A program made the translations under genes and the position numbers. Below are positions 36,215-40,320 of a stretch of 64,000 bases of DNA, piece by piece. Origin of the DNA: Magnetospira sp. QH-2 (GTDB lineage: Bacteria; Pseudomonadota; Alphaproteobacteria; Rhodospirillales; Magnetospiraceae); assembly GCF_000968135.1 (NCBI RefSeq), contig NZ_FO538765.1, positions 2,554,001-2,618,000 of the forward strand, written 5' to 3'. Each line of letters begins with the position of its first letter. Within the stretch, counting starts at the first letter, position 1. The notes under the pieces are model-generated. The model was not told where the DNA came from. It did no database searches and saw nothing but the letters and a program-made list of their open reading frames with translations.

Positions 36215-37600
36215 ATGAATTGGCTTCTGTCAGATATGGGCTCAGCCTGGGCGGCGATGGTAGATCTTTTTACCATGGACGCCAGTCGCTTGGCTGAATG
36301 GGATATGATCCTGCGGCTCAGTTTGCAGGGGGTCCTTTTTGCCCTATCCGCATTTTTTTCCGGCTCCGAAACCGCGCTGTTTTCATTATCGCGCCTGGAC
36401 CTGCAAAAGCTGCGCCGGGAACGCCATGATCAATCCGACAACCTGCACGCCCTGCTCGACCATCCACGTCGGCTGATTATCTCCATTCTCTGCGGCAATG
36501 AACTGGTCAATATCGCGGCCACCGCCAATCTGGCCAGCATCATGATCACCCTTTATGGCCCCGAGCGCGGCGGCTTGGTCAATGTGCTGGTGATGTTTCC
36601 GCTGGTGCTGCTGTTTGGCGAAGTTACGCCGAAAACCATCGCGGTATCCAACCCCATGCGTCTCAGCGCCGGGTTGGTCTCCGCCCCCATGACCCTGTGG
36701 GTAAGGCTGGTCACGCCGCTCCGGCGGGTCATCCGGATCGTCGCCGACAAGGTCACCACCTGGCTGGTGGGTGAGGAACGCCAACGGGAAAACATCCTCG
36801 GCGCGGATGAGTTCAGAATGGTTTTGGAAGAAGTGACCGCCGAGGGCATCCTTGACGGGACCGAACGGGTGATTATCGACAACCTGCTGGAAGCCAGCGA
36901 GGTGGAAATCGTCGAGATCATGACCCCGCGGAACCTGGTTGATTTCCTTTATGACAACATGGATGTTCCCACCGTGGTCGATCTGGTCAAGCAGTACCGC
37001 CACCCGCGACTGCCGGTCTGCCACGAGCAACGAGACAATTTGCTCGGCTTCATCCATGCCGAAGATATCTTGCGGTTGCTGCTTGACGAGGCCGACCTGG
37101 AAAAGATGACCCTTGATGAGCTGATGCACCCGCCCATCGTCGTGCCGCCGACCAAGGAAGTGGATGAGATGTTCGATTTCTTCCAGGCCAACAATGCGCG
37201 GGCGGCGGTGGTGCTCAATGAATTCGGCGGCGTTGACGGCCTGATTAGCATGCGCGACGTGCTCACCTATATCTTCGGCGAAGTGACCGAGGATGTGGAC
37301 GGACAAGAGCACTACCGGGAACAGGACAATGATGTTTACGAGGTCAGCGGCCTGATGAAGCTGACCGATTTCAACGACCTCAGCACTTTTGGAATCGAAG
37401 ATCCACGCATGACCACCGTCGGCGGCGTGGTATTCCGTTATCTGGACCGCCTGCCCAAGGTGGGCGATCAGGTGGATCTGGAAGACGGCATTACCGCCAC
37501 GGTGCTGGAAATGGAAGGGCATAGACTAGCCCGTATTCGACTGGCCCGCGGCGGTGCCGTTGCCGTCGAGATCCCACAAGAGGAGCACGAGCATGGCTGA
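36215..37600 (+). CDS. CNNM/CorC-type transporter-associated protein (DUF21-CBS-CorC)
   Basis: The 461-residue inner-membrane protein has an N-terminal DUF21/CNNM domain with about four membrane segments (about 25-190), starting after FFSGSETALFSLSRL, then a CBS pair (about 210-345) and a CorC/HlyC C-terminal domain (about 365-450). Such proteins act in Mg2+/Co2+ efflux or ion homeostasis; the name hemolysin is historical. It overlaps the next paralogous gene by 8 bp. Confidence 0.85.
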   Translation: MNWLLSDMGSAWAAMVDLFTMDASRLAEWDMILRLSLQGVLFALSAFFSGSETALFSLSRLDLQKLRRERHDQSDNLHALLDHPRRLIISILCGNELVNIAATANLASIMITLYGPERGGLVNVLVMFPLVLLFGEVTPKTIAVSNPMRLSAGLVSAPMTLWVRLVTPLRRVIRIVADKVTTWLVGEERQRENILGADEFRMVLEEVTAEGILDGTERVIIDNLLEASEVEIVEIMTPRNLVDFLYDNMDVPTVVDLVKQYRHPRLPVCHEQRDNLLGFIHAEDILRLLLDEADLEKMTLDELMHPPIVVPPTKEVDEMFDFFQANNARAAVVLNEFGGVDGLISMRDVLTYIFGEVTEDVDGQEHYREQDNDVYEVSGLMKLTDFNDLSTFGIEDPRMTTVGGVVFRYLDRLPKVGDQVDLEDGITATVLEMEGHRLARIRLARGGAVAVEIPQEEHEHG

Positions 37601-38855
37601 TCTCCTGTGGGCCATCCCGGTGATGATTGTTCTGCTGCTGCTCAAGGGCTTTTTCTCGGGCTCGGAGATCGCGCTGGTCAATTCCGACCGCATCAAGCTG
37701 CGCGCCCGCGCCAAGCAGGGCGATCAGGGCGCACGTCTGGCCATCGACCTGCTCAAGAAGCCCGATGTTCTGCTCAGCACCACCTTGGTCGGCACCAACA
37801 TGGCAACGGTGATTCTGACCACCATCGGCACCATGCTGATGATCCAGTTCTTCGGGTCGTTGGGGGATCTGTGGGCATTCCTGCTGTTTACACCGATCAT
37901 GCTGATCTTTGGCGAAATCGTCCCCAAGAGTGTCTATCAGCAAAAGTCCGACACCATCACGCCGGTTATCATCCATCCCTTGCGCTGGTCGTCCTGGCTG
38001 TTTGCTCCGATCATTTTCATTTTCTCGCGCATCGCCCGATTTGCCGCTCGCCTGGTGGGCGGTGGCAAGCGGGAACAGACCATGTTCATCACCCGCGAAC
38101 AGTTACAGTCGTTGGTGGAAATGGCCGAGCATGGCACTGCGCTCAGTGCCTTGGACCGGGGACAGGTACGCCGGGTGATCCGGTTCGCCGAAACAACCGT
38201 CGCCGAAGCCATGATCCCCACCGCCGAAGTCACGGCCCTGTCCCGCACCGGAACCACTGCTGATGCCATTCAACTGGTACGCCGCCATGGCTATAACCGC
38301 CTGCCGGTTTATGAACGTTCTTCCAATAACATTATCGGCATCGTCACCTTGTCCACCTGGGACCTGATGGATGCGGAAACCCAGACCCGCACCCTGGACG
38401 ATTTGATCAAGCCGGCACTCTATGTATCGCCCAACCAAACCATTGACGAGCTACTGCCGGTGCTGAATAAGCGCACCGATCACATGGCCATTGTGGTCGA
38501 TGAATTCGGTTCGGCGGTGGGCATGATCACCATGGAAGACATTGTCGAGGAAGTGGTCGGCGAAATCGACGTGGGTTACGACTTCGAAGAATACCTGCCG
38601 CGCCGCAAGCGCACCGTGGAGGAAGTGGAAACCGGCATCTTTTTGATGGACTCCCGGCTTTCCATCTCCGAAGCCTCGGAGGTCCTCGACATACCCCTGC
38701 CGGCCAAGGAATTCCATACCCTGGGCGGCATGGTCATCGGTCGTCTGCGGCATATCCCCAAAACAGGTGAATCCATCACCGAGAACGGCTTCCGCTTTGT
38801 CGTCGAGGAAGCCACCGAACGCAGCATCGTCAAGCTGCGGGTCGAAGCGGAATAG
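37593..38855 (+). CDS. CNNM/CorC-type transporter-associated protein, second paralogue
   Basis: The 420-residue protein shares the DUF21 (FFSGSEIALVNSDR, then about four membrane segments), CBS-pair (about 200-325) and CorC domain order with the preceding gene. The start was set at 37593 (MADLLWAIPVM), with AGAGGAG upstream and an 8-bp overlap with its neighbour, indicating translational coupling. The two tandem genes probably form a hetero-oligomer. The gene is followed by a MITE-like repeat 3 bp after its stop. Confidence 0.85.
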   Translation: MADLLWAIPVMIVLLLLKGFFSGSEIALVNSDRIKLRARAKQGDQGARLAIDLLKKPDVLLSTTLVGTNMATVILTTIGTMLMIQFFGSLGDLWAFLLFTPIMLIFGEIVPKSVYQQKSDTITPVIIHPLRWSSWLFAPIIFIFSRIARFAARLVGGGKREQTMFITREQLQSLVEMAEHGTALSALDRGQVRRVIRFAETTVAEAMIPTAEVTALSRTGTTADAIQLVRRHGYNRLPVYERSSNNIIGIVTLSTWDLMDAETQTRTLDDLIKPALYVSPNQTIDELLPVLNKRTDHMAIVVDEFGSAVGMITMEDIVEEVVGEIDVGYDFEEYLPRRKRTVEEVETGIFLMDSRLSISEASEVLDIPLPAKEFHTLGGMVIGRLRHIPKTGESITENGFRFVVEEATERSIVKLRVEAE

Positions 38856-38858
38856 GTC

Positions 38859-39127
38859 CTAAAGCCTTTCGTGTTTCATATGACCCATTGTGATGGTCTC
38901 CGGTGAGTCGAACCGCCAGGAAAGGTCCCGAAAGCGATGCGGCGCATCGGTGAGGGAGCTTGACGCCGCGGGCGGCCACCGGAGGCCACTGGAGACCACC
39001 CTGCGGGCCGATCCTTTTGCCCAGATCACGTCGAGTTTGATCGGATTCGATCAAACATGAAAAACGTGATCGATTCCAACAAGGTCGCGCGTGTCTAGCG
39101 CGTCATATTAAACCCGAAAGACTTTAG
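38859..39127. repeat. 269-bp MITE-like element with nested inverted repeats
   Basis: CTAAAGCCTTTCGTGTTTCA opens the left 26-bp arm (38859-38884) and ends ATATGAC. The right arm (39102-39127) ends GAAAGACTTTAG. They match as inverted repeats with about 22 of 26 pairs. Inside are two more dyads: GGTCTCCGGTG (38895-38905) with CACTGGAGACC (38987-38997), and GATCACG (39024-39030) with CGTGATC (39065-39071) enclosing GTTTGATC-GGATTC-GATCAAAC (39035-39056). No gene is inside. The whole could fold into one cruciform. It fills nearly all of the gap between the CorC gene and the decarboxylase gene. Each end contains a TA, the usual IS630/mariner target duplication, so a non-autonomous element of that type is possible. 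Confidence 0.65.
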
Positions 39128-39189: not shown

Positions 39190-40320
39190 CTAAAGATAGA
39201 CTTCCGTCGGCGGTGGAAAGCCGTTGAAGCCTACCGAGGCATAGGTGCTGGTATAGGCTCCGGCAGATTCGATGCGGAGTTTGTCCCCGGCCTTCAGGCT
39301 GAGCGGCATCCGGTAATCCGCCTTTTCGTATAGGATATCAGCACCGTCGCAGGTGGGGCCGGCCAGATGGACCGGACCGGTGGGATCGCCGTCGCGATCA
39401 CTGACAAAGTCATACTGGATGGCCTCGCCCATGCATTCCGCCAGACCGCCGAACAGCCCCACGTCCAGATAGACCCAGCGGGTTTTGTCGTCATGGGTCT
39501 TGCGCGACACCAACACCACTTCGGTTTCCAACACACCGGCATCGGCGATGATGGAGCGCCCGGGTTCGATGATCATATCGGGCATGGCATTACCGAAATG
39601 CGCGTGCATGGCGCTCATGATGGCTTCGGCAAATTCGTCCACCGACGGAACATCCCGGCGGTAGCGCACCGGGAAGCCGCCGCCCAGATTGAGCATCCGC
39701 AGGTCAACGCCCTGCTCGCGCAGATCTGTAAAGACCATGGCGGCATCGGCAATGGCCGCTTGCCATTGATCGGGGTCGGTTTGCTGCGAGCCTACGTGGA
39801 AGGAGACACCATGAGCGACCAAGCCCAGGTCCCGTGCTTTGAGCAGTAGGTCCTTGGCCATGTCGGCGGCGCAGCCAAATTTGCGCGACAGCGGCCAGTC
39901 GGCCCCCTTATTTTCCACCAGCAAGCGGCAATAGACCCGCGCGCCCGGCGCGTTCTCAGCCAGCTTGATCAGTTCCTCTTCGGCATCAAAAGCAAACAGA
40001 TCCACTCCCAGCGCATGCGCCCGGGCAATATGAGCCGCCTTCTTGATGGTATTGCCAAAGGACAGACGGGCCGCGTCGGCCCCGGCTTCCAAGCAGGATT
40101 CCACCTCGAAGATGCTCGCCGCATCGAAATGGGAACCCAGACCCGTCAGCCGTTCCAAAACAGGTGCGGCGGGATTGGCTTTCACCGCGTAATAGATTTG
40201 TGCGGAGGGCAGAGCCCGCCGCAAACGCTCATAATTGCTTTCAACCTGATCCAGGTCGACCACCAGACAGGGTGTTTCGGGCCGCTCACTTGCGAGATAA
40301 CGGGAAATCTTCGGCGTCAT
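39190..40320 (-). CDS. Ornithine/lysine decarboxylase-type fold-III PLP enzyme
   Basis: The 376-residue protein is a eukaryotic-type (alanine racemase fold) decarboxylase. The PLP lysine is K47 in YAVKANP. The glycine-rich phosphate loop GGGFPV is visible, and the catalytic cysteine C324 lies in GPTCDGAD, as in ornithine decarboxylases. It would make putrescine (or cadaverine) for polyamine synthesis. The size fits bacterial ODC of this class. A hairpin and a 46-residue ORF lie immediately upstream on the same strand. It ends just after the MITE-like element. Confidence 0.88.
   Translation of the reverse strand: MTPKISRYLASERPETPCLVVDLDQVESNYERLRRALPSAQIYYAVKANPAAPVLERLTGLGSHFDAASIFEVESCLEAGADAARLSFGNTIKKAAHIARAHALGVDLFAFDAEEELIKLAENAPGARVYCRLLVENKGADWPLSRKFGCAADMAKDLLLKARDLGLVAHGVSFHVGSQQTDPDQWQAAIADAAMVFTDLREQGVDLRMLNLGGGFPVRYRRDVPSVDEFAEAIMSAMHAHFGNAMPDMIIEPGRSIIADAGVLETEVVLVSRKTHDDKTRWVYLDVGLFGGLAECMGEAIQYDFVSDRDGDPTGPVHLAGPTCDGADILYEKADYRMPLSLKAGDKLRIESAGAYTSTYASVGFNGFPPPTEVYL

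Follow-up and report, generated by a model that had tools for sequence, protein, structure and literature searches.

A probable degraded miniature element of Magnetospira sp. QH-2 and its alphaproteobacterial relatives with a common hairpin device

The intergenic element and its repeats in the host genome

In the genome of Magnetospira sp. QH-2 we analyzed a stretch of 64,000 nucleotides (contig NZ_FO538765.1, positions 2,554,001 to 2,618,000; termed the window), in which positions 38859-39127 occupy 269 bp of a 334-bp gap between two convergent genes. On the left lies a CNNM/CorC_HlyC-type gene (37554-38855, + strand), with its stop codon 3 bp before the element, and on the right an Orn/DAP/Arg-decarboxylase-type gene (39190-40320, - strand), whose end is 62 bp away. 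A preliminary description of the sequence had rightly noted that the stretch fills this gap and had proposed a non-autonomous mobile element or a structured regulatory RNA. In our analysis the stretch is probably a degraded copy of a non-autonomous miniature element of the IS630/Tc1-mariner type (family A), belonging to a superfamily with a conserved RNA-like device.

The outer arms (38859-38884 and 39102-39127) agree at 23 of 26 positions when counted from the sequence, where about 22 had been claimed. Both open with CTAAAG, with the TA that had been reported near each end at arm positions 2-3. A repeat search between 38700 and 39300 (9-base seed, 12-base minimum) reported no inverted pair, indicating that the arms are imperfect. 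The minimum free energy (MFE) fold is a single long structure whose outermost pair joins 38859 with 39127; its energy is -125.8 kcal/mol, against an average of -86.25 over 200 shuffles (sd 4.94, z -8.01), none of which was as good. The expectation that two inner dyads make the region one large hairpin thus agrees with the fold, but the dyads differ in origin, the first (stem 38894-38988) being the hairpin module of family A (termed M) and the second (39024-39071) the first hairpin of another repeat, B. The region had also been described as free of open reading frames (ORFs); the ORF listing holds one of 74 aa that spans it (38830-39054, - strand), for which we see no reason in the sequence to assume gene status.

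A search of the host genome (4.05 Mb) with the 269-bp sequence returned 65 matches, which resolve into the two repeats A and B. The left part of family A was found at 17 loci (L009-L025), and these copies and the related ends exclude the single copy without relatives that would have spoken against a mobile element. Complete copies free of inserts are about 268 bp long with arms of about 35 bp (L016, L017, L022), and four loci have no recognisable right arm (L015, L019, L023, L024). The pattern of the terminal inverted repeats (TIRs) of family A, with up to 3 mismatches allowed, occurs 47 times in the host genome, its reversed control not once. The 269-bp element had no match in a plasmid collection.

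Repeat B, a unit of 101 bp flanked by TA repeats, consists of two hairpins and is sometimes found in tandem; 38 matches longer than 60 bp were present within the 38 loci examined. Five A copies of 371-381 bp (L010-L014) contain B at one internal site, probably as the result of one old event; in A copies without B this site is an exact single TA, with the flanks otherwise continuous. The empty site with one TA that had been suggested as a check was thus found for repeat B; none was obtained for family A, the window copy included. Compared with L010, a deletion in the window copy runs from a GGGTC in B to a GGGTC near the right arm. The window copy thus derives from a composite of A and B through the loss of about 112 bp, which explains why it has M without its inverted partner (M', see below) and why its second dyad is B. 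It is a degraded, rearranged composite that is now probably immobile. The features are listed in Table 1.

Table 1 Features of the element in the window (R1, covariance model of M, see text).
Feature	Position	Strand	Remark
Left TIR of family A	38859..38893	+	Outer 26 bases pair with right arm; family arm about 35 bp
Left terminal TA (C-TA-AAG)	38860..38861	.	
Hairpin module M and outer stem S1	38894..38988	+	MFE pairs 38894-38988, 38905-38977
Core of M, R1 match of 85.4 bits	38907..38977	+	Window copy among the model's 12 sequences
AGGA, 5' half of conserved internal loop of M	38918..38921	+	
GACG, 3' half of conserved internal loop of M	38962..38965	+	
Entry site of repeat B in A	39022..39023	.	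TA in L010-L014, CA in window copy
Truncated copy of 101-bp repeat B	39024..39100	+	First hairpin 39024-39071
Internal deletion junction	39100..39102	.	About 112 bp missing vs L010: end of B and right half of A with M'
Right TIR, ends TTTAG	39102..39127	-	23/26 match to left arm

Other repeats accompany these families. Head-to-tail arrays of two to three B units, with one common TA per junction and a spacing of 103 bp, occur at L032, L035, L037, and L043. B also lies with identical flanks in five IS110-like copies (named by eye), upstream of the recombinase ORF (L026-L029, L030, L068:3096-4755). IS110 elements encode a bridge RNA upstream of this ORF, and repeat B seems to have spread together with the IS110-like element. 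A further palindrome family, with TTTTTCAGCAGCCTG ends and a CTTCGACAAGCTCAGG core, stands beside several A copies or copies with TIRs (flanks of L016, L021, L052, L058, L065, and L066).

The hairpin module and the anatomy of its relatives

When 40 genomes were searched (host included), only the core of A was matched beyond the host, in three genomes (G004, G027, and G033), where a core like that of A lies between wholly different ends. In an alignment of 11 cores, 86.8% of the cells were paired, as opposed to 36.8-47.5% in slid controls, and 14 of the 22 pairs had changed on both sides, such that the stems vary while pairing is kept. The internal loop of M is constant on these covarying stems, one side reading AGGA and the opposite side GACG. 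From 12 sequences of M only, including the window copy, a covariance model (R1) was built and used at a threshold of E <= 0.001; the counts that follow include the host, and the searches of the order, class, and phylum used stricter filters. R1 detected 41 places in the host genome (150 of 6142 candidates scored). Matches were obtained in 111 of 297 genomes sampled from the order (71 of 210 good genomes), in 32 of 385 sampled genomes of the class, and in 7 of 398 sampled genomes of the phylum, all seven being Alphaproteobacteria. In a genome-contig collection, the M pattern gave 10 matches, five of which (L074, L075, L077, L079, and L081) were judged real by their flanks; these comprise four from Rhodospirillales (L077, L079, and L081 from one metagenome-assembled genome, plus another) and one from Proteobacteria. 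The other five (L076, L078, L080, L082, and L083) look like chance, and the A-core pattern had no match in this collection.

Although trained on M alone, R1 also detects a second, inverted module, M', within the same elements: it was found in 26 of the 88 loci, or 24 of 79 distinct places, always on the other strand and in most cases at a distance of about 100 bp from M. TIRs stood clearly above shuffles in 54 of 59 testable loci, the other 20 of the 79 lying too close to the end of a contig. Among 49 elements selected more strictly, 38 have a length of 264-274 bp, and 41 have M beginning 45-48 bp inside. The TIRs span about 35 bp and end in TA or CTAG in most relatives that have them, yet they fall into 26 groups with a mean identity of 0.30 (0.26 when shuffled), as compared to 0.59 for M. 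Family A is therefore a member of a large alphaproteobacterial group with the same hairpin pair and almost completely differing outer ends. In G035 and G097, which belong to one genus, an M element occupies the same position next to an ORF that resembles phosphatidylserine synthase by eye (L101, L102), so some insertions are old enough to have been inherited.

The modules span about 50 nt from AGGA to GACG, as two helices and the internal loop. Among 96 distinct rows, the motif pair is exact in 87, and 95.1% of the cells pair, with a score of 0.725 against 0.209 for shuffled rows, in an alignment that was fitted to the model. On the AGGA-to-GACG strand, G-T pairs outnumber A-C pairs inside the model by 121:9 in M and 54:7 in M', and outside the model by 50:16 in M. 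Since such an excess on one strand points to the single strand rather than the duplex, selection seems, from these pair counts, to act on a single strand, most clearly for M. The structured-RNA half of the original guess is thereby backed in part, through strand-specific covariation.

No known RNA family accounted for the module: an Rfam scan of 10 element loci yielded no match at the gathering score, and two other A copies had a sub-threshold microRNA match. A tRNA-derived element was considered and set aside, as the tRNA-Sec match in the window is sub-threshold (E 0.08) and is not listed for the A copies L012, L016, L017, and L020, while ARAGORN gave for seven A loci only a tRNA-Ala in L020, outside the element. 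Reading the AGGA/GACG loop as a K-turn, attempted by hand, was dropped because the C-stem would not pair.

M also occurs in a third host repeat, C (167 bp, TAAGAG ends), which carries one module and is inserted at a TA in two A copies (L055 and L056), with a single base left unexplained. Repeat C was noted at L055, L056, L016, L023, and L068. Fourteen places in the host score identically with R1 (76.6), and the three inspected are repeat C; the identical scores suggest recent activity of this repeat.

Mobility, genomic position, and competing explanations

Many host copies, TA-bounded ends, and the absence of a related element in congeners bear out the proposal of a non-autonomous mobile element. 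The last point concerns genome G030, in which an element (267-bp insert) splits a 604-bp query built from its joined flanks; 22 of its 28 congeners match the joined flanks uninterrupted (65-76% identity), five match partly, and one does not match.

A candidate source of transposase is the IS630 family. DDE_3 matches are present in 11 of 24 M-bearing genomes, including the host, which has one DDE_3 (IS630-type) gene with ends CTAGAGCRTTTCCCA and three Y1 matches. An IS30-like transposase ORF (named by eye) adjoins the sole DDE_3 match of the host (L070:331-1299). Inverted ends terminating in TA were found for 13 of 28 DDE_3 loci; the tips of these insertion sequences (ISs) include CTAGAGC, CTAGTAC, CTAGTGT, CTAGTGC, CTAGTGG, and ATACCA, and such tips also occur on the TIRs of M elements. 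Of 39 TIR tips, 21 agree with an IS end at 7 or more of 10 bases (500 shuffles: mean 2.0, maximum 7). In G097, an IS630 and an M element of another subfamily share 21 of 23 terminal bases in one arm and 19 of 23 in the other, so that the predicted IS630/mariner-type transposase with the same ends has a near-identical counterpart in one relative; none was found for family A in the host genome. No R1 match lies between the IS ends in the 13 DDE_3 loci with ends found; a strong M match is located elsewhere in the locus at three DDE_3 loci (L146, L162, and L168), and the IS ends of L162 and L168 were not found.

By rough ORF calling, 11 of 15 A copies of the host lie between convergent genes, and A ends serve as a stop codon in 8 of 30 cases, compared to 2 of 240 shifted control positions. 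In the relatives, ORFs of 80 codons or more terminate at 35 of 76 terminal TAR triplets, against 107 of 610 TARs in the flanks (CTAG: 4 of 23); this stricter count replaces a looser one (38 of 98 ends; shifted positions, 30 of 579). Of the 49 elements, 28 have an ORF-ending TAR at one or both ends. A homologue of the window's decarboxylase gene, from another family of the order, has an M element placed exactly in its stop codon (L105:1700-1730); the gene ends in the element's TAG, with its C-terminal length unchanged. Repeats that supply stop codons are described for BOX (PMC3049150) and GTAG REPs (PMC3733652), so this habit is known rather than new.

From these observations, an IS630-family DDE transposase would mobilise family A in trans, with insertion at TA, often within CTAG. 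The ancestor of the window copy received B, itself TA-targeting, and a later internal deletion took the right half. The elements of the superfamily are about 270 bp long and have a near-constant layout of a 35-bp TIR, about 11 bp, M, a spacer, the inverted M', and the second TIR. Insertions into stop codons may survive because the TAR end restores the stop, and a transcript from either side would read a TAG or TAA stop and then, about 45 nt further on, an M hairpin in the right sense. M may work as single-stranded RNA, namely as a hairpin in the 3' untranslated region (3'-UTR); either neighbour of the element would thereby gain a 3' end that is harmless or stabilising, and the element would be tolerated where genes converge. 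M may stabilise, process, or end the mRNA. A broader proposal, which we advance tentatively and regard as possible rather than probable, is that one long-lived alphaproteobacterial non-autonomous lineage keeps a two-hairpin RNA device, exchanges or radically diverges its TIRs for many IS630 transposases, and settles in stop codons that its TAR ends regenerate, with one 3'-UTR hairpin per neighbouring mRNA.

Several points weigh against this explanation. Concerning mobility, the orthologous junctions of the G030 element are too diverged for reading a target duplication, and no empty site was found for any A copy in the host genome, the best candidate being one gapped 74% match. In the host genome, no transposase flanked by the ends of family A was found, the ends of its single DDE_3 gene being somewhat different, and 13 of the 24 M-bearing genomes have no DDE_3 match, though many are fragmented. 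The finding of IS ends at DDE_3 loci was made without a shuffled control, and the TIR tips and IS ends compared above were hand-picked, hand-trimmed, and non-independent. As to genomic position, the convergent share of 11 in 15 stands without a genome-wide base rate, and the terminal TARs were counted with mechanical ORFs, which insertions within genes would likewise end. Concerning the module itself, M was the bait, and its similarity is thus partly ascertainment; length, offset, and TIRs were not bait. The G-T excess of M' is gone outside the model (15:13), and no terminator-like, T-tailed hairpin is present at M in the window.

The device could alternatively act at the DNA level, the hairpins forming in single-stranded DNA or as cruciforms, for example as sites for the transposase or a host factor. 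We rate this as unlikely, though still a serious contender: M and M' are inverted symmetrically with the TIRs, as expected of DNA-level end signals, and single-stranded DNA tolerates a G-T wobble better than A-C. However, the sequence of the outer stem covaries, indicating that pairing matters and not a base-specific duplex site, and the convergent, stop-codon-adjacent positions fit transcription. An immobile, fixed cis-regulatory RNA of the window locus would suit the strong fold and the convergent intergenic position, but we give it next to no credence, since 17 loci in one genome already refute it. The nested insertions, and a related element that one genome has and most of its congeners lack, speak against it as well.

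Two further alternatives concern the origin of the hairpin pair. If the subfamilies were ordinary miniature inverted-repeat transposable elements (MITEs), that is, separate deletion derivatives of different IS630 elements with functionless chance palindromes as common hairpins, their IS630-like TIR tips would be accounted for, and RUP with IS630-Spn1 offers a precedent (PMC2229807). Separate deletions would not, however, yield a near-constant length and offset, an inverted M and M', and the same loop across 26 TIR groups; this and the failure of R1 to match between the ends of the 13 IS630-type loci (those of L162 and L168 were not found) make such an origin quite improbable. The pair could also be read as a head-to-head dimer of CGTC-tagged repetitive extragenic palindromic (REP) sequences, moved as a unit via its single-stranded hairpins by a Y1 tyrosine transposase similar to REP-associated tyrosine transposases (RAYT-like), the TIRs being secondary. 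Indeed, the other strand of M reads CGTC-hairpin-TCCT, the two CGTC heads of the pair face each other, CGTC REPs are described as mostly alphaproteobacterial and mostly head-to-head dimers (PMC3733652), and three Y1 matches exist in the host. We nevertheless find it improbable, because the stem, tail, and first-pair features of CGTC REPs differ from those of M, no match to M at E<=1 was obtained at any of the three Y1 loci, and the clear TIRs with TA or CTAG ends are typical of DDE elements.

Comparison with known systems

With their TIRs, short length, lack of a transposase gene, and multiple dispersed copies, the M elements have the features of MITEs. A literature search found, in titles and abstract openings, no description of such elements in Rhodospirillales, subscription papers and preprints being mostly outside its reach. 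The closest parallel is RUP of Streptococcus pneumoniae, for which mobilisation by IS630-Spn1 has been proposed, and which is likewise small and non-autonomous, with a TA target, IS630-like TIRs, and enrichment between convergent genes (PMC2229807, PMC3049150). Unlike the M elements, RUP is 107 bp long and its TIRs pair with each other in one tight fold; the portions of these two papers that deal with RUP mention neither inverted modules with a conserved loop nor several TIR types around one interior. The CIR repeats of Caulobacter and Brucella are also alphaproteobacterial and intergenic, with a proposed two-arm RNA plus linker and a terminal TA (PMC2229807), but the description there sets them apart, as it lists no TIR and places a GANTC methylation site in the loop.

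REPs in general often lie between convergent ORFs, and the CGTC-tagged class, in the account of PMC3733652, is mostly head-to-head and alphaproteobacterial with CGTC at the hairpin foot. M shares the CGTC tag at the hairpin foot, and M and M' are inverted, most about 100 bp apart. The CGTC REPs are described as 20-40 bp units with 8-9-bp stems, A/T first pairs, and mostly a CCA tail, for which no transposase was found (PMC3733652). M, by contrast, has a TCCT tail and longer, broken stems inside a TIR-bounded element; an 8-9-bp stem, a total of 20-40 bp, and a CCA tail are not found in M. Nor are its first two pairs A/T, the first pair being GC in 68 of 96 rows and AT in 26, and the second AT in 36 and GC or CG in 56. 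BOX, ERIC, and NEMIS/Correia are similarly structured miniature elements that can affect or border genes (PMC3049150, PMC2229807), and for one genome 36 cases are described in which BOX supplies the stop codon (PMC3049150). They have other hosts and sequences, and the passages on them in these papers report no superfamily with differing ends around a constant interior.

In summary, the M elements work like RUP and IS630-Spn1 and resemble both CIR and the CGTC-REP dimers, but fall outside the REP definition. In a typical MITE, the ends are conserved because they have to be recognised by the transposase, and the interior serves as filler. The M elements reverse this norm, with an interior device kept across a bacterial class and ends that differ almost to randomness. 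This allows a direct test of what a parasitic element requires in addition to its transposase, for instance a 3'-UTR hairpin that gives tolerability. They also bear on the spread of the alphaproteobacterial CGTC-type palindromes, which in the words of one account 'apparently lack a dedicated transposase' (PMC3733652).
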